Positions 6,558-16,500 of a DNA stretch of 24,915 bases are shown here, one piece after another; the first letter of the stretch is position 1; the number at the start of each line of letters is the position of its first letter. The notes under the pieces are model-generated. The model was not told where the DNA came from. It ran no database searches and saw only the letters and a program-made list of their open reading frames with translations. The stretch comes from a virus. Made by a program: the position numbers and the translations under genes. The DNA is taken from IMG/VR virus record IMGVR_UViG_3300045135_000812, positions 1-24,915 of that record; one strand, 5' to 3'.

Positions 6558-9473
6558 CTACTTGAGGTATTCCGCTGGAATGTTTATGATTGCGTTTCGA
6601 GAGTGATCAGGACGAACGTGACGGGCTGCAACCTCTGCCATGTTCTGTTTCGAACCCATGATATTGCGGAAGTTACTCAAAAAGTTCCACACAGAAGGTT
6701 CGTATTCACTCTGGTTGAAATTGTACGAATCTTTTATCGTCACCGAGCCATCTTCGTTGTCGTGAGCAGTGAATTTACCTAGACTCGCACGTACTCGGTA
6801 GTCGACGTCTTTGATCTGCTCGTCGTAATCGCCGTGACCTACAGGCTCGTTGATGTTTTCGTCATAGGTCGTAATCGAGGTTCTTCCACGAGAATCTTCA
6901 AAAGAGCGGATCTTGTCCGCAAGCTTACCCATCTCGTCTTCTACGGTAGTCAGGCTGGGGTCGTCGTAGTACCAGAAGTTGTTGTCTTCTGAGTCTACGT
7001 TCTGCCCCTGTTCGTTTTTACGGAATGGGAAGTTGGTACCGAACAGGTCGAGGAGTTCTCCTTCGTACTTGTCGTTTTTCTCGCGTTGCTTTTTGATTAT
7101 CTGGCCGATGTACTGTAGTTCTTCGTCTGTGAAGTCTGCTTCAGTGATGTCATCTTCCTTGCCTAGCATGAAGTCGATGTAGAGCTGCTCGTGGGTAGGG
7201 CGGCGAGCTTCGCCTCCTTTTGCCATAGCCATGCCTTCAGCGGGTAGCTGCTGCTCTTGCTGTGGCTGTTCCCCGTTCTCTTGCAAACGTTTTTCGGTTT
7301 CTTTGGCACCACGTGCGTTTATCTTTTCGAGACGATCGTAACCGATGATTTTAGCGAGGGTAGGAGGAATGACGACTTCGCCTTTAGATACGAGCAAAGA
7401 CACGGCGGTATTCTTATCTATTTTATTGCCGTTGTTAGATATGTCAACCCCTTGCTGCTCTGCTTCTTTCATGGCGTCAAGCAGCATTGTTTTAACATCC
7501 TCTGATCCGGCAAACTCAACTGCGGCTGCGTTCAGTACGTAAGAGCCCTCTGGCACCTCCATCTGAACGTCATCTGCTACAGTTTGCCCATCTTGTACCT
7601 GCTCAGGCTGTTCTCCTACAAACCCTACGGGCCCACCCCCTGCCATCGCCATCTGCGGCAGGGTAGCCTTGCCTTCCTGTAGTTCGACAAGGAATTTGTT
7701 GTACTCAACAACATAGTTTCGCTCCGTGTCGTCCGCTGCAACGCTCGGGTTGATCATGTACTTTTCAGGGTTTCGTTTGATGTCCTCTTGGTTGTTTACC
7801 AAAAAGCCGATATCTACGGTACGGCCTGCTTCTCCGCCCTCAGCCATCTTTTCAATCTTGCCACCGCATGCTGCGCGCGCAACGCCCTGTCTTTCTGCAA
7901 ACAGTTTTGCGTATGGGTTTACGTAGGGTTGAGCTGCTTTAGGCACGAGAGATACTGTTCCTGTGGTTTGGCCCATTACACCGGGGCTCAAGTAAGATGG
8001 GATACCCGCGCTTGTTATCGCGTCGGTGATGGTTGTGCCGCCCGTCGCAGTGTTAGTGACGTTGGAAGTCACGGAACCGCCGCTGTCAGATCCCCCGATT
8101 GCCGCAGATGTGACGTCACTGGTCACGCTCTTAGCGGCTTGTTCTTCCGGAGTCGTCATCGAGCTTGTTGTGCCGCCGAACCATTCCACTACACTAGCTG
8201 CGGGCCCAGTCCACCCTGTGTAGTTGTATGTGACATTGTCACGGTTGGTGATATCCTGCACCACACCCGTCTCAATGTCCCCGACGATTGCGGCGTATGG
8301 GCCGGTTGCCATGTCGATGCCGGCGTTCAAGGCAGCAGTGCCGAATTTCGCTGCGAGAGCGTCCGCGCTATAGCTGCGCATGTCCATGCCGATACGGCTG
8401 TTTTCCATGTCGATGTAGAACTCTGGCTGGTCAAACAGCTGTATATCCTTAAACATCGTGCTTAGGGGCTCGTTTAACTGGCTGATGCCGATCTTAGCTG
8501 CAACGTTGCCCGCTTTTTCAAGCACCGAAATATCTTGGTTTAGGGCGCTCGGTTCGATGAATATACCGGTGCCTTGTGCAGCAGCGGCTGCTCGTACGGC
8601 CTCAAAGTTCGACGTCTTGAACACGCCCGGTTCAAATTCAAAGATATCCCCGTCAGCTGCGATCACTTTCGGGTCTGGGGCGAATCCCTGCGTGAGGGAC
8701 TCCCAGAACGACTTTGTCGTCACATCTTCAAACTTTTCCATGTACGCAATAGTATCTTCGAACTCTTGGTCGAAGGTCTTATCGGCGCGGAACTGGGACT
8801 CGTCTACATTACCCCACATCGGAATGTCTGTGGTGGTGCCGATCTGGTACGAAGCGTCCCGAAGTGAAGACTCAAACGACGCCTGTGTTACATCGTCTGA
8901 CGTGTAGAACCCATCCCCTGTAGCCGGTTGGTTTGACAGCGCCTCGTACATCTCCGAGAATGCGTTGCTGTCTGGTGTTATAGATACATCAGGCACACCC
9001 GCTGCAGATGTGTACGGGGTGTTTACATCCGTCCCCGTGAAAAAGCTGCTGCTGGTATCCGACGTGATAGTAGATGACGGCGAGTATGCGTCTATTACGC
9101 TCGTGTCTGCGGTAAAGTCCGCGGGGTTAAATGCGTAGTTTGGTTCTGTCGGAGTTGGCGGAGTGTACGAGCTGGACCCACTATCATTCGAGGTGCTAAC
9201 CGCGGGAGATGACGACTCGTACGCTGCTCTATCTTCCGTGTACGTGGAATATCCCGAGTCCCCTCGACCGGAGTAGCCACTCGACGTGTCCGTGTTTGTA
9301 GATACGGAGTTTGAGACGCCACCGATTGCGTTGCCGTTGCGGTCCGTGACGTTGCCCGGAGAAGGGGTGGATGTGCTTCCACCGCCACCGCCGCCGCCCG
9401 AACTTCCGCCCGAGTCGCCGCCCCAGTAGGGACCTTTTTCAGACTGTAAACGCACTAACCAGCGACTAAACAT
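6558..9473 (-). CDS. Large internal virion / DNA-ejection protein (probable)
   Basis: This 971-aa protein is not assigned to a named family with certainty. Residues about 17-40 are a Gly/Ser linker, and about 40-200 a low-complexity Ser/Thr/Tyr/Asp-rich stretch without clear fold. A helix- and strand-bearing middle follows. Near 530-550 is ACGGKIEKMAEGGEAG, and near 610-660 a GGGPVGF plus VPEGSYVLNAAAVEFAG block resembling segments in large structural proteins of marine phages. The last 250 residues are charged. No lytic transglycosylase motif or clear membrane helix was seen. The ATG shares its A with the stop of the GNAT gene (TAATG), so translation is coupled. Placement after a gp13-like protein suggests a core or ejection protein. 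Its location between portal and scaffold, rather than after the tail genes, is unusual for T7-like phages. Confidence 0.7.
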   Translation of the reverse strand: MFSRWLVRLQSEKGPYWGGDSGGSSGGGGGGGSTSTPSPGNVTDRNGNAIGGVSNSVSTNTDTSSGYSGRGDSGYSTYTEDRAAYESSSPAVSTSNDSGSSSYTPPTPTEPNYAFNPADFTADTSVIDAYSPSSTITSDTSSSFFTGTDVNTPYTSAAGVPDVSITPDSNAFSEMYEALSNQPATGDGFYTSDDVTQASFESSLRDASYQIGTTTDIPMWGNVDESQFRADKTFDQEFEDTIAYMEKFEDVTTKSFWESLTQGFAPDPKVIAADGDIFEFEPGVFKTSNFEAVRAAAAAQGTGIFIEPSALNQDISVLEKAGNVAAKIGISQLNEPLSTMFKDIQLFDQPEFYIDMENSRIGMDMRSYSADALAAKFGTAALNAGIDMATGPYAAIVGDIETGVVQDITNRDNVTYNYTGWTGPAASVVEWFGGTTSSMTTPEEQAAKSVTSDVTSAAIGGSDSGGSVTSNVTNTATGGTTITDAITSAGIPSYLSPGVMGQTTGTVSLVPKAAQPYVNPYAKLFAERQGVARAACGGKIEKMAEGGEAGRTVDIGFLVNNQEDIKRNPEKYMINPSVAADDTERNYVVEYNKFLVELQEGKATLPQMAMAGGGPVGFVGEQPEQVQDGQTVADDVQMEVPEGSYVLNAAAVEFAGSEDVKTMLLDAMKEAEQQGVDISNNGNKIDKNTAVSLLVSKGEVVIPPTLAKIIGYDRLEKINARGAKETEKRLQENGEQPQQEQQLPAEGMAMAKGGEARRPTHEQLYIDFMLGKEDDITEADFTDEELQYIGQIIKKQREKNDKYEGELLDLFGTNFPFRKNEQGQNVDSEDNNFWYYDDPSLTTVEDEMGKLADKIRSFEDSRGRTSITTYDENINEPVGHGDYDEQIKDVDYRVRASLGKFTAHDNEDGSVTIKDSYNFNQSEYEPSVWNFLSNFRNIMGSKQNMAEVAARHVRPDHSRNAIINIPAEYLK

Positions 9474-9886
9474 TATTCTTCTTCTCCGATGGGCTTGCTG
9501 ATAGTTGTAGATTCATCTGTAAAACCTGATAAAGCACGTAGCCACCCACGTCTACCAATAACTTCCATTCTGTCACAGCCGCGAGATACCCCGTAGCGTT
9601 CCAGAGTTTTTAAGGCAGCATCCCAATCCGCGTTGTCGCCGCCAAGAGTAGTAACGACAATCGCGCGACACTTCGCATATTCTACGATGTTGGTCACGCA
9701 TGCTGATGTAATGTTGCCATCCTCGAGAGCGACCCACAGTTGTCTATGGCCTTCTCGGACGAGAGGATACAGGTCGTCCGTATCACTCCGGTATGTTTCT
9801 ACGCGGGATAGCAGAGGATGCACTGCATCCCATACTACGTCCACGTCTGCCGGCTTAACGAGAAGCGGCTGAATTTGCCTGCTCAA
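9473..9886 (-). CDS. GNAT-fold internal virion protein (T7 gp13-like)
   Basis: This 137-aa protein is almost the same length as T7 gp13 (138 aa). It has the GNAT-like pattern of that family: LLVKPADVDVVWDAVHPLL at the N-terminus, LWVALEDGNITSACVTNIVEY in the core strands, and CDRMEVIGRRGWLRALSGFTD at the C-terminus, where acetyltransferases have the RGWxxxLxxxGF segment. In T7 the homologue is needed for virion assembly rather than known acetylation. The only usable start in this frame is TTG at 9886, because a stop lies 30 nt upstream, so the gene overlaps the 80-aa gene by 32 nt. Its stop overlaps the next ATG. Position beside the large virion protein supports an internal-core role. Confidence 0.8.
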   Translation of the reverse strand: MSRQIQPLLVKPADVDVVWDAVHPLLSRVETYRSDTDDLYPLVREGHRQLWVALEDGNITSACVTNIVEYAKCRAIVVTTLGGDNADWDAALKTLERYGVSRGCDRMEVIGRRGWLRALSGFTDESTTISKPIGEEE

Positions 9887-10097
9887 CGACTGCTCGATGG
9901 CTATCCGGTAGGTTCAGCAGGGTTTCCAGTAAAGCCATCTTCCCCTGCAGCCGGAACATTTCCTGTTCCGATTGTGCCGTTACCAACCCCCGAAGCGTCA
10001 ACTGGTGCAGGTCCGCCAGATACTGGACCAGACCCTCCCATGCTTGGCTGTTGTGGATTAGCGGGGCCACCTTCTGGGCCTGTTCCTTGTTGAGCAT
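9855..10097 (-). CDS. 80-aa helical protein overlapping the portal 3' end
   Basis: The ATG at 10097 opens an 80-codon frame (MLNKEQAQKVAPLIHNSQ...) in a different frame from the portal gene. Its first 197 bp overlap the last ~65 portal codons, and its last 32 bp overlap the GNAT gene. The product has strong amphipathic helices (WEGLVQYLADLHQLTLRGLV; EMFRLQGKMALLETLLNLP). It resembles small helical proteins encoded near portals of other podoviruses, which I recognise only as a pattern. By contrast, the portal tail in the overlap is Gly/Pro/Asn-rich low complexity, as expected if this frame is the constrained one. The Shine-Dalgarno is weak (AGGGA, 8 nt upstream). The function is unknown; chaperone or connector-associated roles are possible. 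Confidence 0.72.
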   Translation of the reverse strand: MLNKEQAQKVAPLIHNSQAWEGLVQYLADLHQLTLRGLVTAQSEQEMFRLQGKMALLETLLNLPDSHRAVVEQANSAASR

Positions 10098-11997
10098 TCT
10101 GGAGTCCCTGTAGTACTTTAGCGTACAACTGTGCTTCGTTGATGTCGTTGACCAGTTCGTCCGGATCGATATCTTGTGAGATTGCGAGTTCCTTGACGAG
10201 GTTTGGCAGCTTCACAAACGGCGCGAGCATCGGATTTGCAACTGTCTGTAGCAGTGTAGTTAGGCGCTGAGAACGCACCTCTTTCTGCATCACGGCTGCT
10301 GTGCCACGCGGTTTGATAGACAGATCGCCTTCAATGTCTGGGGCAGCATCGTTGTACTGCATATTCCACTGAAAGTACGACTCACCCAATGGTTTGAGCA
10401 GGAAGTCGTCGATGTTCTTAACGACTGTCTTGATAGACATGCTACCTGCGCTGAGAAGCATGGACAGACCGGACGATGTACGTCCCGTGCCAGATACGCC
10501 GGTTTGACCGTGCATCACTGACGGGATACCCGTCTCTTCGTCGGCAAGCTGTCGCGCAATCTGATACATCTGAATGTTTTCAGGCGCTGTGTTCGGGAAC
10601 TTCTGCGCGTTGATTGCAGTGCCCGTAACGCCAGACTGACGTCGGAATACTTTACCGGGGAAGATGTCAAAGTTCTGACCGGGAACGAGGGAAGCCTCGT
10701 CCACGTCAAACACGAGGTTGCCCGCCAAAGCTAGGTTGTCGATGGCCATACGGACGTGGCCATTCATGAGCAGCTGTGCGTCTTCCATATTCTCGGCAAC
10801 ACCCACGCCCCAGATCTGGTACGGATCTACTTCGTATGGGAAAGCCATATACGGAATTCGGGCCGGCGTAAATGGATTTAGGACGCAGCGGATAACTTCG
10901 TTTCCACATATCCAAGCATTGATCTGTACCTGATCTAGCTCGGTAACTGTATCCGGAAGGTCCAAGCCGACTTCACGGGCAAACTGTGCGTCGAGAACAC
11001 CCCAGTATTCGAGGATTTCGTAGCGGTTTTCGTTGCCGTACGGTGTGTTTTCCTCTTCTCGGATGGTGCTTTCGAAGTATTTGTCTTGGTAGTTCGGGCC
11101 TTTTACAAGGGCGTTTTCGATGGCTTGCCCATTAAAATATGGACGGTTCATCAGGCCGCGAACCTGTTGGCGAGTCATACGGTGGCGTTGGATGACGTAT
11201 TCTGCGTCTTCCACCGTAACTGCCGAAGGATCTGGGTAGAAATCCCACACGGACACGTGCTCCGAACGAGGTACGACTGTTTCTACCGGATCGTAGACAC
11301 GGGTGCCCTCTTCGTCACGCGACCAACGGTGAGATCGCTTGTAGTAGTTGAAAGGACCCTTCACGATACCTGTACCGAGAAGAGCACCCTCGAACACAGC
11401 GTAGCGCAGTACGTTGACGGCGTCTGTGTCGAGCAGCTGGTCGTGGATGTGTTTTTCCATCCGGCGCGCAGCGTCATCTGCCGGCTTGAACTGAGGTTCG
11501 CCCATCAAGGCGGGTCCCTCAGCCAGCTGGTCCTTCATACTTTCGTACTTGCCGAAGTTTATCCCCGTTGCGCCCGGTTCTAACTCCATTCCGTCTCCGG
11601 GGAAGCCGAACGGGCTTTGCAACGCGTCATCAGCAGGGGTTTTCATGTGGACAAACTCAGCGACGCCATCGGGTACAGGAGTAGCCTCTACCACGATGGG
11701 GAACTTCTTGTTAGCAAACAAGATGTCGATGATTTGACCGTACGCAGACAGGACCTTAGTCTTCGTAATCTTGATGAACACTTTTGAGCGTTCACTGTCA
11801 CGGTACTGAGTCGTAGAGTCGTAAATACCTTTAAAGTTCTTGTACGCCTGCAACCAACGAGACTCGAACGTCTGTCGGCCGTGTTCAGCTTCCGTAAACT
11901 TCTCTTGAATATGACCCGCTAGACCCGGCATACTCGCAGCAGTGTCGAGTACTTCGACCTGACCATCGTCTGGATTTTGGAGGAAACCCTCTGCCAT
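9901..11997 (-). CDS. Portal protein
   Basis: This 698-aa protein forms the dodecameric portal at the packaging vertex. Podovirus-portal features are the N-terminal helical segment (ESRWLQAYKNFKGIYDSTTQYRDSERSKVFIKITKTKV), the wing with EGALLGTGIVKGPFNYYKRSH, the VWDFYPDPSAVTVEDAEYVIQRHRMT block, RIPYMAFPYEVDPYQIWGVGVAENMEDAQ, and the long stem/crown helices ending in SQDIDPDELVNDINEAQLYAKVL. The size is like P22 gp1 (725 aa). The last ~60 residues are Gly/Pro-rich and coincide with an overlapping gene in another frame. The ATG at 11997 is preceded by AAGGTAAGAAGAC, which includes the stop of the 69-aa gene. Location after terminase and before scaffold matches the P22 order. Confidence 0.92.
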   Translation of the reverse strand: MAEGFLQNPDDGQVEVLDTAASMPGLAGHIQEKFTEAEHGRQTFESRWLQAYKNFKGIYDSTTQYRDSERSKVFIKITKTKVLSAYGQIIDILFANKKFPIVVEATPVPDGVAEFVHMKTPADDALQSPFGFPGDGMELEPGATGINFGKYESMKDQLAEGPALMGEPQFKPADDAARRMEKHIHDQLLDTDAVNVLRYAVFEGALLGTGIVKGPFNYYKRSHRWSRDEEGTRVYDPVETVVPRSEHVSVWDFYPDPSAVTVEDAEYVIQRHRMTRQQVRGLMNRPYFNGQAIENALVKGPNYQDKYFESTIREEENTPYGNENRYEILEYWGVLDAQFAREVGLDLPDTVTELDQVQINAWICGNEVIRCVLNPFTPARIPYMAFPYEVDPYQIWGVGVAENMEDAQLLMNGHVRMAIDNLALAGNLVFDVDEASLVPGQNFDIFPGKVFRRQSGVTGTAINAQKFPNTAPENIQMYQIARQLADEETGIPSVMHGQTGVSGTGRTSSGLSMLLSAGSMSIKTVVKNIDDFLLKPLGESYFQWNMQYNDAAPDIEGDLSIKPRGTAAVMQKEVRSQRLTTLLQTVANPMLAPFVKLPNLVKELAISQDIDPDELVNDINEAQLYAKVLQGLQNAQQGTGPEGGPANPQQPSMGGSGPVSGGPAPVDASGVGNGTIGTGNVPAAGEDGFTGNPAEPTG

Positions 11998-12008
11998 GTC
12001 TTCTTACC

Positions 12009-12218
12009 TTACGCGAACTCGCGCATGTCGTTAGCTAGTTTATCGATTTGACCAGTCACAGTCGGTTTAGACTGTTTCTTAGGTGCAGCTTCGATAAGTA
12101 CGTCAGTTTTTGCAACGCCGTCGAACTGCTTCTTAGCGTTCTTCTTAGCAGCGTCGGCTTTGTGATCGTTCACACCTTTGCCACATGCGTTCATAATTTC
12201 TGCTGATACGTAGCTCAT
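12009..12218 (-). CDS. 69-aa Lys/Ala-rich protein, unknown
   Basis: The ATG at 12218 is chosen because AAGGAGA lies 7 nt upstream; the frame stays open further upstream but would overlap the preceding gene. The product (MSYVSAEIMNACGKGVNDHK...) is small, basic in the middle (ADAAKKNAKKQFDGVAK; PKKQSKPTV) and ends in a short helix (IDKLANDMREFA). It sits 11 bp before the portal gene and 16 bp after the 717-aa recombinase-like gene. It is probably translated in large amounts given the strong ribosome site. No family is recognised. A small head-associated or DNA-binding packaging accessory is conceivable from its charge and position, but nothing proves it. Confidence 0.75.
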   Translation of the reverse strand: MSYVSAEIMNACGKGVNDHKADAAKKNAKKQFDGVAKTDVLIEAAPKKQSKPTVTGQIDKLANDMREFA

Positions 12219-12234
12219 GCTAGTCTCCTTGTTG

Positions 12235-14388
12235 TTATTGTCCGAATAGCTCGGATGCTTCGTCATCGATCGAGCGCATCTGAGGACCCGCCATACCACG
12301 ATTCTGTAATTGTTGTGACATCTGTTCCTGTACGAGCGGAGCCATACGGACAGGTCCACCGACCTCATCCATCTGCTGTCGCTGTATAGTCACGGCCTGT
12401 CTTTCGGGTGAAATCTGTTCGCCAGCAGGTTGCGATTGCATCATCGCTACTGGCAACGGCTCTACAGCCTCATATAAGCCCACTCCTGCGCCTTCTAGCA
12501 TAGCCTGTGGGGTAGATGCCCCTCGTTCCTTAGCTTCGCTGTAGCGGCTCGTAGCGGCTCCTGTGATGGCTGTTACACCTAGACCCGCCATAGCAATCTT
12601 GCCGGCGTTCTTTAACATGTCTAGGTAGCGACCAAAGCCCGCCTTCTGTTCGTCGTTCATTGTGTGTGGGGGACGTTCGTTTTCGGCTTCTTGTTGTGCC
12701 GCTTTCTCAGCTTTACGCTGCTCGCGGTTTTCTGCCTGTAAACGTGCCTTCTCGTCTGCGAGTTGAGCCTTACGCTGAACTTCCTGCATTTCGAGTTCTT
12801 GCTGGCCTTTGAGGTAAGCCTGACCTTCTTCACTCTGTAGCCACTGCAGTTTTTGTGCGTCCACTTTCATTCGCTCGAGTTCTGCGGATGATTGTTTTAC
12901 GCTTGCTTCTGCTACCTGTGCTTCTGCAACCTTTGTTTGCTGCTCAGGAGTGAGTTGTACAGGGCGATCGATGAACCCCTGCGATGTGCTCCCGATACCT
13001 GCGCCTTCCCACGAAGTTGCGGCACCTGCTGAATACCCTTGTACGATGTTACCGATCTCTGCAACAACGGCTGCAGGCTGACCCGCGTAGTTCTTACTCA
13101 GGATGCTGACGTCGGTGTGGCCCATCAAGCCTTTCACCAAGTCTTCCGGTACTTTGAACTCGTCGCGGAGCATCTTCGGAATGATAGAGCGGATCGCACT
13201 CGGCGTAGAGATTACGCCCTTAGATGGGTCTTGCTTATCTACGAGAGGAAGCACGTCTTCGTATCCCGCCAACAGAGAAGGCGAGATGTACTGTCGAAAC
13301 GCTGTGTTGAACTTGGCAGGAGACGTGTTGAACAGCATGTCTGTGGTAGCCGTGTCTCGTGCGTTTATGATCAGCTGTCCGATCGGGCTGTCGATTGGGT
13401 ATGAGATGTCTGGACGAGTCTTCTTACCACGTGTTACGCCACGTACGGTAACGGTATCTCCGTCCACACGAACGTCGTCTTTCTTGATGCCGCCCGTACC
13501 GACGATCTGCTCAATACGGTTGCCCGTAGCGCGATGGTACTCCACAGCTGCTGCTGTAGCGGGATCTGTTTCGGCAATCTTAGGAAGCGCCTGTGAATAG
13601 ATTTCATCCAAGCCTGCACGAGGTACTAGACCGCGCATAGGGCGTTCGCCTGCCAATCCTGTACGCTGTGTACCGCCCGACACACCACCTTCACCGGTGA
13701 TCTGTGGGTAGGCGTCGACCATACCGAGACCTTCGACCTCAACCTGCGTACTCAGTACACCCGCCCCCTGTAGAGATGGACGGATAACTTTTTCGAGTGC
13801 CTGTAGGTTGCCGAAGCGGTTAGCACCGCCACCTTCTTTACTAAACTTCTGCCAGACTTCTTCTTTACGCAGATCTGAGTAGAGAGTGTCTGCGCTGAGG
13901 CCCGCCTTTTCGATACCAGAGCGAAGCGCGCTGATACGACGTTTAGCGTTGTCAGATACGGATGGACGTGACTCTGCGTACGAGATTGCTTCGCCGAGTG
14001 TGAGAGATCCCGCTTTTGCTTTCTTAGCTAGATCTTCTGCAGTGAGAGATTTTGCAGGAGCTGGCGCTTTTTCTTCCACGAGTTCTCCGAAGTTGAAAGA
14101 CGGTGCATCCATTCCCATAGACGCACTGGCGATCTTGCGTGCTGCGTTGTCGAGTACGGCCGCGACATCTTTGTCACCGGCCTGTTTGATGTATTCCTGT
14201 GCTAGACTGTCCGCAGACAGACCCGCCTTCTCTGCGTCCGACAAAACCTTTGCACGGAACTTCTGTGCTTCTGCTTCGTTGGTACGGAGATCTGTTTCGG
14301 AAACATACACCTCGATGGCTTCATCCAACAGAAGACTCGCAGGAGTCTGTAGTGCTTTGCCTAGTTGTTCGCCAGTGTACGTTGCCAT
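12235..14388 (-). CDS. 717-aa head-cluster protein with embedded tyrosine-recombinase domain
   Basis: Residues ~280-436 read as a tyrosine recombinase catalytic domain: box I Arg291 in ATGNRIEQI, a beta-hairpin Lys (322/323) in RGKKTR, box II Arg400 in SAIRSIIPKML (with Ser397 where His is usual), His424 in LMGHTDVS and Tyr434 in SKNYAG. The spacing R400-24-H424-10-Y434 is normal for the family. Upstream, two related helical modules (AEKAGLSADSL at 52-62; IEKAGLSADTL at 159-169) may be duplicated core-binding or arm-binding domains. Downstream are a Glu/Gln/Lys coiled coil (480-570), a hydrophobic Gly/Ala segment (595-612) and a Met/Gln-rich tail, all atypical for integrases. The gene abuts terL (TAAATG) and precedes portal. 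Inference: a virion-associated recombinase or ejection protein that reuses the fold. An active integrase is possible but unproven. Confidence 0.8.
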   Translation of the reverse strand: MATYTGEQLGKALQTPASLLLDEAIEVYVSETDLRTNEAEAQKFRAKVLSDAEKAGLSADSLAQEYIKQAGDKDVAAVLDNAARKIASASMGMDAPSFNFGELVEEKAPAPAKSLTAEDLAKKAKAGSLTLGEAISYAESRPSVSDNAKRRISALRSGIEKAGLSADTLYSDLRKEEVWQKFSKEGGGANRFGNLQALEKVIRPSLQGAGVLSTQVEVEGLGMVDAYPQITGEGGVSGGTQRTGLAGERPMRGLVPRAGLDEIYSQALPKIAETDPATAAAVEYHRATGNRIEQIVGTGGIKKDDVRVDGDTVTVRGVTRGKKTRPDISYPIDSPIGQLIINARDTATTDMLFNTSPAKFNTAFRQYISPSLLAGYEDVLPLVDKQDPSKGVISTPSAIRSIIPKMLRDEFKVPEDLVKGLMGHTDVSILSKNYAGQPAAVVAEIGNIVQGYSAGAATSWEGAGIGSTSQGFIDRPVQLTPEQQTKVAEAQVAEASVKQSSAELERMKVDAQKLQWLQSEEGQAYLKGQQELEMQEVQRKAQLADEKARLQAENREQRKAEKAAQQEAENERPPHTMNDEQKAGFGRYLDMLKNAGKIAMAGLGVTAITGAATSRYSEAKERGASTPQAMLEGAGVGLYEAVEPLPVAMMQSQPAGEQISPERQAVTIQRQQMDEVGGPVRMAPLVQEQMSQQLQNRGMAGPQMRSIDDEASELFGQ

Positions 14389-16104
14389 TTAGTATCCGAA
14401 TACAGAGTCTTGTGGTTTGAAGGTGGAGTCTTTGATTGCCTGTAGCGACTTGTGGATGCTGGCGTATCCCGATGTACGGGTCATCAGCATGTAGCGCAAG
14501 GCATCGTATGCGTGGTCTTCTGCCTTTGTGTCCACGTCTTCACTGTTTGTCTTAGAGAGCGGTATGCCCGCCATCTGACGCACAGTGTTAGTACAGGTTT
14601 CGAAGATCTTGAGGGTTGGTTCTTGTGTGAATTCATTGAGACCGAGACGACGGTGTATTTCCATCTTACCGGCGATGCGGTTACGATCCGACGGTGTCCA
14701 GCGACATCCCATGCGGATCATGGTCTCTGCAATTGATGGTCCGTACCCTGTTCTGTTCCAACACGATGAGTCGAGAACAGCGTAGTGAGGGTCAGGATCG
14801 AATTGTTCCAATTCTAGTATTTTAGCAGCCAACTGCTCTGCTGTAAAGTGTTTTACGTAAAGTTCTCTGTATACCCAGATGTTGTTGTCCCAGTCGATGG
14901 CGCCCCATAGCACACACGATGGACTTGCATACCCGTAGTCGGCCGCACGGATGCGTGGCCAGTTGGTCGGCAACTCGAAGGGGTCAACCACGTGACGGAT
15001 CTTACTGAACTCAGGGAATGCGGCACCTTCAGCCACGTCCCAGTCACCTTCGAGCAGTCGCTTACGCTCTACTTCAGGTAGAGAGAGCAGCATCGCCTCA
15101 TATTGGCCGTCTGCCATGAGGAAGGGGTTGTCGGTCAGTTTCGCGGGCACGAACTTCCTGTAGTACAGGGGCTCGCCCTCTTTTGCGTGGCCCGGAGGGT
15201 AAACAAGAGGCTTTTCACTGTCGAGGTCGATCGGTACGAAGGGTTTCCCCGGCTCGTTTTGATCGATGTACATCTTCTTCACCCACCAGCCACCGACACC
15301 ACCGGGGTTGGCAGTACATCGCATCGACAGGTTCGGTGCCAACTCGGGGTCTGTGGTACGTAGACGAGAACGGAGGTACTCCCACACGTACGGTGTCGGA
15401 TACTGGGTTATCTCGTCGATGGCGATCCAGTTGAATGCCTGCCCTTGATAGCGCGTGACGTCCTTCTCTTTGTCGAGGTACGAGAACCAGATGGTTGCGC
15501 CCGATGGGAATACCCACGTGGACTTTGATTCACGGAACACCGCACCGGGAAAGGCTTTGGGGTAGAGCTGCTTCGACTTTGAAATCAGTTCAGTGAGTTC
15601 GTCGAGAGTTCGACGTAGTAATAGCCCGCGGTGATTAGGATTATGGCAATAACGCAGAGGGTCAGCAAGAAGAGCAAAAGACTTACCGCCACCCGCAGCC
15701 CCTCCGTAGAGAACATCGCGCTCAGGAGCCGACAGAAACTCTTCTTGAGGACCCGCATTGGGCTGGAAAACAACTTCTGAATCACCTACAACCTCCTTCA
15801 CCGACGACGGCAATTCGTTTACGTCGCCCATGTCTATTACGCGTGATTTATCCCCTGCGAGGCCGTCCTGCACCTTCTGTGCCGCTGCCTGCTTCTTACG
15901 GGCGTTTTGACGACGTTTTTTAGCCCGTTCCATCTCCCTGTCGGCCTGTTTCAGGTCTCGACGGATCTTCGCCTGTGTCGCGCGACGGGCACGTTCGTTC
16001 GGGCCCAAGCGATAGGTTGCTTTGGGTGCATTTGGGTCTTTTTTTGGGCGTCCGCGCTTCTTCGGGGCGGGCTGTTCGTCTGTTTTTTCGATTTCGTCTG
16101 TCAT
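14389..16104 (-). CDS. terL: Terminase large subunit (ATPase/nuclease)
   Basis: This 571-aa protein drives packaging of DNA through the portal and cuts concatemers. Visible motifs are Walker A GGAAGGGKS at 134-142, Walker B WIAIDE with Asp230/Glu231, the coupling-type stretch SMRCTANPGG at 260-269, and nuclease acids at Asp389 (RAADYGY), Asp445 (AVLDSS) and Asp534 with Asp530 (KAEDHAYDALRY). The first ~85 residues are an unusual, strongly basic helical extension with an AT-hook-like KKRGRPKK at 15-22, likely for DNA contact. The gene starts 9 bp after the ParB-like gene and ends adjacent to the recombinase-like gene. The Shine-Dalgarno is poor, so coupling to upstream translation is likely. 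Confidence 0.96.
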   Translation of the reverse strand: MTDEIEKTDEQPAPKKRGRPKKDPNAPKATYRLGPNERARRATQAKIRRDLKQADREMERAKKRRQNARKKQAAAQKVQDGLAGDKSRVIDMGDVNELPSSVKEVVGDSEVVFQPNAGPQEEFLSAPERDVLYGGAAGGGKSFALLADPLRYCHNPNHRGLLLRRTLDELTELISKSKQLYPKAFPGAVFRESKSTWVFPSGATIWFSYLDKEKDVTRYQGQAFNWIAIDEITQYPTPYVWEYLRSRLRTTDPELAPNLSMRCTANPGGVGGWWVKKMYIDQNEPGKPFVPIDLDSEKPLVYPPGHAKEGEPLYYRKFVPAKLTDNPFLMADGQYEAMLLSLPEVERKRLLEGDWDVAEGAAFPEFSKIRHVVDPFELPTNWPRIRAADYGYASPSCVLWGAIDWDNNIWVYRELYVKHFTAEQLAAKILELEQFDPDPHYAVLDSSCWNRTGYGPSIAETMIRMGCRWTPSDRNRIAGKMEIHRRLGLNEFTQEPTLKIFETCTNTVRQMAGIPLSKTNSEDVDTKAEDHAYDALRYMLMTRTSGYASIHKSLQAIKDSTFKPQDSVFGY

Positions 16105-16113
16105 AATGGGGTA

Positions 16114-16500
16114 TCAGGCCGCGTATTCGCGCGGATTCATCTGTATTTTCTCTTCCCACGACGTCAAAAACGCGAGATCTGGGCAGATGTAGGCTTCGAT
16201 GAAGCGGTAGCCGAGTTCTGTGGCCGCCCAGTAGCGATTATTTCCGGTGTAAACGAAGTATTCGGCTTCTGGGTTGTCGACACACTGTTCGATCACGTAG
16301 TAATCCAGCTTTTCGCCCATCAAATGACGGGGGATGACCACGATCGGGTTGATCAAGCCCTCTCGAACGATCGATTCTTCGACCTGCTTTCCTATCACGG
16401 GGTGAGGACGGTAGAGGGAGGACAGTTTCTCCATCGGGAGAAGCTTGATATCGACCTCGAGAGGGTTGTTCTTACTAAACAGATACACACCGCACCCCAA
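16114..16500 (-). CDS. ParB/sulfiredoxin-fold protein between the terminase genes
   Basis: This 128-aa protein shows the ParB N-terminal-like pattern: VDIKLLPMEKLSSLYRPHP, then VEESIVREGLINPIVVIP, and the signature YTGNNRYWAATELGYRFIEAYI (compare G-R-R-AA-LG of ParB/Srx proteins). There is no C-terminal helix-turn-helix domain, so it is a stand-alone domain. The start is TTG at 16500, one base after the terS stop, with GGAG 9 nt upstream. GTG at 16488 is an alternative, while the internal ATG at residue 23 would cut the first beta-strand. ParB-like domains bind nucleotide and can act as DNA clamps or nucleases. Lying between terS and terL, it may help recognise or prepare packaging DNA; that role is inferred from context. 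Confidence 0.78.
   Translation of the reverse strand: MGCGVYLFSKNNPLEVDIKLLPMEKLSSLYRPHPVIGKQVEESIVREGLINPIVVIPRHLMGEKLDYYVIEQCVDNPEAEYFVYTGNNRYWAATELGYRFIEAYICPDLAFLTSWEEKIQMNPREYAA

Follow-up and report, generated by a model that had tools for sequence, protein, structure and literature searches.

A cysteine-free tyrosine recombinase with exchangeable heads, encoded between terL and portal in uncultured HMO-2011-type podoviruses, is a candidate ejected virion protein

In tailed phages, tyrosine recombinases are normally products of early or lysogeny genes and are synthesised inside the cell. What, then, does such a protein do when its gene lies in the late operon, between the genes for the large terminase (terL) and the portal? 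This question is raised by a 24.9-kb viral record (the window, meaning the whole stretch of 24,915 nt analyzed here). A gene at 12235..14388, on the minus strand like all other features of the window given below, encodes a cysteine-free protein of 717 amino acids with the features of a modular tyrosine recombinase (YR). The earlier note, made from the sequence of the window, had placed this gene against terL with the portal gene after it. This arrangement was confirmed, except that a small ORF of about 70 amino acids (12009..12221), found in nearly all relatives, intervenes before the portal gene. The stop codon of terL (14389..16104) adjoins the ATG of the recombinase gene (...TACTAA ATGGCA). 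The portal protein (9901..11997) is of the SU10/HMO-2011 type. It is followed by a small protein of 137 amino acids (9473-9886) with a weak PHROG match and unknown function, which overlaps the next gene by one base. This next gene encodes a large post-portal protein (6558..9473, 971 amino acids, one cysteine), a candidate ejection protein on the basis of its cysteine content and its relatives. A weakly ParB-N-like protein is encoded between the small and large terminase genes (16114-16500) and was recognized by similarity in only one other among the first 151 loci fetched. TerL and portal show 48-58% and 43-52% identity, respectively, to those of HMO-2011, CRP and HTVC phages, which were among the best matching isolates. 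By these similarities, the window is placed as a member of an uncultured clade of HMO-2011-type podoviruses, which are marine bacterial viruses.

The slot gene, as the gene in the terL-portal interval is called here, encodes a protein composed of several distinct regions. Residues 114-215 (13744..14049) form an N-terminal helical, core-binding-like (CB) domain, delimited by helices in the AlphaFold (AF2) model and by a Foldseek alignment which covers lambda Int in both its core-binding and its catalytic region. An extra copy of this helical module occupies residues 1-108 (14065..14388) in the window and in the relative L081, and most relatives are without it. The duplication had been noticed earlier, and it holds, as the local score of 68 was not reached in any of 1000 shuffles (0/1000, maximum 62). 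The catalytic domain covers residues 256-450 (13039..13623) according to alignment, AF2 and Foldseek. Residues 478-570 (12679..12957) are charged, rich in alanine, glutamic acid, lysine and glutamine, and probably helical. Of the coiled coil proposed for this region, the helical stretch stands while the heptad pattern is weak. Residues 590-717 (12238..12621) comprise a moderately hydrophobic segment and the C-terminal tail, the portion of the protein which different recombinase subfamilies have in common in the relatives. The hydrophobic segment of the earlier note is thus present, but it varies across the family. A conserved transmembrane segment is unsupported, as a KD value of 1.6 was reached by only 9/105 slot proteins.

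The catalytic residues R291 (13516-13518), K323 (13420-13422), R400 (13189-13191), H424 (13117-13119) and Y434 (13087-13089), as well as K322, were found at the positions reported before. The Arg, beta-hairpin Lys, Arg, His and Tyr follow the order of the family with XerD-like spacing. In an alignment of 28 relatives with about 20-40% identity, which was made blind to the motif, R291, K323, F353, R400, G423 and H424 were invariant. Y434 was invariant in the L-INS-i alignment and conserved in more than 90% of the sequences in another. The pattern therefore exceeds chance. Lack of conservation of R291, R400 and Y434 in homologues had been named as the result that would speak against a recombinase, and it did not occur. 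From the proposed Lys322/323 pair, only K323 is retained by the family, K322 being unconserved. The first box II His is replaced, as had been stated, by S397 in the window and by Ser, Thr, Gly, Ala or another non-His residue in all 28 relatives, and the HxxR motif is accordingly missing family-wide. This position varies within the tyrosine recombinase superfamily, so that membership rests on the fold and the other residues.

Sequence profiles recognized the relatives more readily than the window protein itself. The window protein alone gave no match in Pfam, nothing significant for a recombinase in a PDB sequence search, and a marginal match to the PHROG integrase (E 0.012). Its PDB sequence matches were of the coiled-coil-type, low-complexity kind and were discounted. 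In the profile search suggested in the earlier note, PF00589 had no match in the window protein and matched 11/28 relatives (best 7e-6); the PHROG integrase matched 14/28 (best 1e-8). At the curated profile cut-off, the window protein had no match and one clade genome was above it. The AF2 model of residues 103-456 was predicted with a pLDDT of 88.4 and a pTM of 0.78. All of the top 16 PDB matches in Foldseek were tyrosine recombinases, with lambda Int (E 9e-5), XerH and Tn1549 Int on top (probability 1.00), and the recombinase fold is thereby borne out by the predicted structure. The TM-scores were moderate (about 0.5), as expected when a two-domain protein is compared with DNA-bound forms. 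A second, very divergent cluster of slot proteins possesses invariant R178, K203, R279, R302 and Y311, an R-K-R-R-Y pattern with arginine in the place of the second His of box II. It was also predicted to be a YR (pLDDT 90.6), with Cre and XerA as the best Foldseek matches. Within subfamilies, dN/dS of the recombinase region was mostly 0.02-0.2 (0.37 in one pair; some pairs were saturated), and the C-terminal part showed laxer selection. These values show purifying selection on the recombinase domain. The slot protein is almost certainly a conserved tyrosine recombinase of the active type, its activity being predicted from these features.

Relatives were collected via terL and portal similarity. 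All of the clade terL-portal loci (113/113) have a gap of 1.5-3 kb with a slot gene, which is directly beside terL in every clade locus examined. Of 200 sister-lineage loci, all have a shorter gap apart from two: in Sinorhizobium phage phiM6 and in Rhizobium phage N3_19 it is as long or longer and filled by other genes. These are a GDSL-hydrolase-like gene in phiM6 (L154:5222-6829) and a FAD-oxidoreductase-like gene in N3_19 (L157:3935-6484), both with ordinary cysteine content. The 105 distinct complete slot proteins (513-759 amino acids) fell into three broad blast clusters, or into 22 stricter and very divergent subfamilies. Profile comparison linked the group of the window to four other subfamilies (E 6e-7 to 1.5e-15) and SC7 to SC4; the remaining small subfamilies were joined by blast clustering and by eye only. 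Peptides of the window protein itself had no match in phage isolates or viral contigs, and five representatives of different subfamilies had none in 50,697 phage records, a collection in which no isolate of the clade turned up.

The slot proteins share a peculiar composition. Cysteine is absent from 105/105 of them (65,711 residues), and histidine (0.52%) and tryptophan (0.24%) are also low. When only one protein per subfamily is counted (13,892 residues), a cysteine rate of 0.25% would give about 35 cysteines, and zero was observed. TerL from the same loci contains about 1.1% cysteine (average six per protein), and 15 canonical integrases of sister phages contain 0.98% (average 3.3), none of them being cysteine-free. 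The proposal that any gene in this slot is cysteine-free was rejected, since FAD oxidoreductase, GDSL hydrolase and HNH slot genes elsewhere have 5-8 cysteines. As the slot genes of phiM6 and N3_19, which are unrelated to the recombinases, have 5-7 cysteines, the signature belongs to the recombinase and not to the place. A similar composition is known from ejection proteins. T7 gp15/gp16, P22 gp7/gp16/gp20 and N4 gp50/gp51/gp52 are, like the slot protein, cysteine-free, similarly low in histidine and tryptophan and rich in alanine. They have no recombinase domain, and the likeness is one of composition, with no sequence relation claimed. Exceptions among ejected proteins are T7 gp14 and gp6.7 with one cysteine each. 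On the other side, the P22 and T7 scaffolds, P22 gp26, the major head protein of N4 and some tail proteins are cysteine-free too. Absence of cysteine is therefore not specific to ejected proteins and is a correlate rather than a definition. For the N4-like virion RNA polymerase (vRNAP), cysteine-free composition has been proposed to aid passage through the tail or periplasm (PMC3715699, PMC2784036, PMC3915230).

Apart from the recombinase itself, the large proteins without cysteine in three near-complete genomes of the clade are the post-portal protein, some tail or fibre proteins, a scaffold-like protein and the products of a run of five genes which closes the structural module. Cysteine does occur in those replication proteins of the same genomes that were checked. 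In G001 (29462-38635; near-complete relatives L385-L393), the run consists of five consecutive genes for proteins of 442, 159, 182, 717 and 1552 amino acids, and three of its genes are without PHROG match in G002. It is probably an ejection-protein set. The post-portal protein is cysteine-free in many relatives, and the window copy has a glycine-rich N-terminus. Its counterparts in phiM6 and N3_19 are cysteine-free as well and match a cell-wall hydrolase family (E 1e-5 and 2e-3), which fits what an ejected protein might carry. The earlier suggestion of a recombinase built into the virion or ejected is supported, independently though indirectly, by the absence of cysteine, the composition resembling that of T7, P22 and N4 ejection proteins, and the cysteine-free, probably ejected neighbours. 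The slot protein is probably located in the virion.

The slot gene is modular. For comparison of its parts with the lineage of the phages, a tree of terL plus portal was constructed for 70 phages, and tail types were defined as short similarity clusters of the last 70 amino acids, their number depending on the threshold. Recombinase subfamily required at least 37 changes on this tree (minimum 17; shuffles average 53) and tail type required 24 (minimum 16; shuffles average 49). The C-terminal tails are common to several recombinase subfamilies, the largest tail type being paired with nine, and the subfamily of the window was paired with ten tail types. The phages L070, L074 and L080 have upstream terL flanks which are 96-98% identical, yet their heads belong to YR3, YR16 and YR10. 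Between phages with different heads, homology breaks off about 3-12 nt past the start codon of the slot gene and sets in again close to the end of the gene. Heads are thus exchanged almost at the start codon, and tails track the phage lineage better. The conserved 5' sequence at the exchange boundary is the C-terminal coding end of terL. Direct repeats or conserved motifs, expected at the boundaries in case of self-mobilisation, were not seen by eye. Low dN/dS within subfamilies and unrelated heads in close phages indicate that the diversity arose mostly via head replacement; fast evolution alone is disfavoured on the same grounds.

The family was also compared with known integrases and related recombinases. 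Lambda Int, XerH, Tn1549 Int and Cre (PF00589) share with the slot protein the predicted CB plus catalytic fold and the order of catalytic residues. The slot protein differs from them in the lost first box II His, the long C-terminal extension, the late operon, the absence of cysteine and the exchange of heads against a retained tail. The integrase of HMO-2011 (gp09) and CRP-3 (gp02) is from the same phage group and superfamily, with profile similarity at E 1e-4 for a three-sequence profile. It is encoded in the early region beside the replication genes, has about 300-360 amino acids and contains cysteine, and its carriers are without the slot gene. The integration site of CRP-3 is a tRNA-Met gene (PMC6918029). 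Among sister records of at least 45 kb, 12/18 had one strong integrase match. Six clade genomes of 47-57 kb had no integrase match outside the slot, and five of them had a weak one inside it (none in the sixth). The slot gene anticorrelates with canonical integrase. This anticorrelation, the domain exchange and the family-wide conservation go beyond the earlier note.

No attP and no tRNA were found in the window, and inverted repeats within slot genes were not enriched (2 seen, 3.4 expected). A scan of a few early-region proteins from one clade genome brought up no lysogeny gene such as a repressor or excisionase gene. Prophages of the clade were not found in GTDB genomes with recombinase and portal as queries, in a pattern search which finds close relatives only. 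The portal relatives found on plasmids, at 21-29% identity, are remote and uninformative. In the assemblies of three genomes, the two ends overlap by about 91, 100 and 786 bp, of which only the first overlap was seen to be consistent from both ends. This fits terminal redundancy or circular permutation, and if so, homologous recombination could already circularise the genomes.

The reading we prefer, with a probability of roughly 0.55, is that the virion contains a catalytically competent recombinase, which is ejected together with the DNA; its loading, ejection, activity, target and task are deduced rather than observed. The protein would be translated after terL and made late alongside the packaging machinery. 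It would enter the head and be held there by its variable C-terminal tail, docked to the head or ejection machinery of its own phage. It would then leave with the DNA and refold in the host cell, where the CB-plus-catalytic head with its R-K-R-H-Y site may cut and rejoin DNA via a 3'-phosphotyrosyl bond soon after entry. N4 vRNAP provides the precedent of an ejected enzyme acting on DNA. The likeliest task may be circularisation or integration of the genome upon its entry, a role which sister phages leave to their early-region integrase. The task is the least certain part, because the searches yielded no site and the assemblies would also fit terminal redundancy. As specificity is proposed to lie in the head, phages would swap heads in order to act on another target, retaining the tail suited to their own virion.

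The main rival is a recombinase of late packaging or genome processing, which would act on concatemers or junctions in the producing cell and might stay in the particle. Its model is VLF-1 of baculoviruses, a virion structural protein of the lambda Int family with a place at the ends of the nucleocapsid, affinity for cruciform DNA and a presumed role in genome processing (PMC6669607). Nudivirus VLF-1 appeared in the Foldseek list, and the constant adjacency to terL would suit such a role. The similarity is weak (E 0.025), VLF-1 is from eukaryotic viruses, and the analogy here is functional only. Modular head exchange is not known from VLF-1. The packaging role by itself leaves unexplained the total loss of cysteine, which the neighbouring TerL retains, and the frequent exchange of heads among closely related phages whose terminase and portal are the same. 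We regard it as unlikely.

Less likely still is an ordinary temperate-phage integrase relocated to the late operon and working outside the virion. It would explain the anticorrelation with canonical integrase, and head swapping resembles the exchange of integrases that alters attachment sites, but a late position, a C-terminal extension of 150-300 amino acids and zero cysteines are not expected from it, and neither lysogeny genes, among the few clade proteins scanned, nor prophages in GTDB genomes were recognized. The ejected recombinase might instead be a weapon against host or competitor DNA such as resident prophages and plasmids, hence its polymorphic heads. The exchange of heads and tails resembles polymorphic effector families, and several head subfamilies occur in the very close phages L070, L074 and L080; recombinases rarely act as toxins, however, and the target is purely hypothetical, which makes this reading improbable. 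The least probable is a catalytically dead fold serving as a structural protein, the alternative that the earlier note itself had offered. The first box II His is indeed absent everywhere and the second cluster has Arg for the second His. Topoisomerase IB, however, works with Arg-Lys-Arg-His-Tyr, lacking that first His. In both clusters, the few invariant positions include the other residues of the active site, despite only 20-40% identity among the relatives, and selection on the recombinase region is purifying.

If the preferred reading of an ejected, catalytically competent recombinase is true, the enzyme would act before any phage gene expression, and its delivery by the particle would explain why a recognisable integrase is missing in the clade. 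It would be a second kind of ejected DNA-acting enzyme, besides the N4-like RNA polymerases. Somewhat short of even odds, we tentatively propose a class of virion-delivered recombinases in which a swappable, site-specific head is joined to a lineage-faithful, virion-docking tail and which replaces the early integrase. Such a class, if true, would allow the genome to be integrated or circularised, or resident DNA to be attacked, without phage gene expression.
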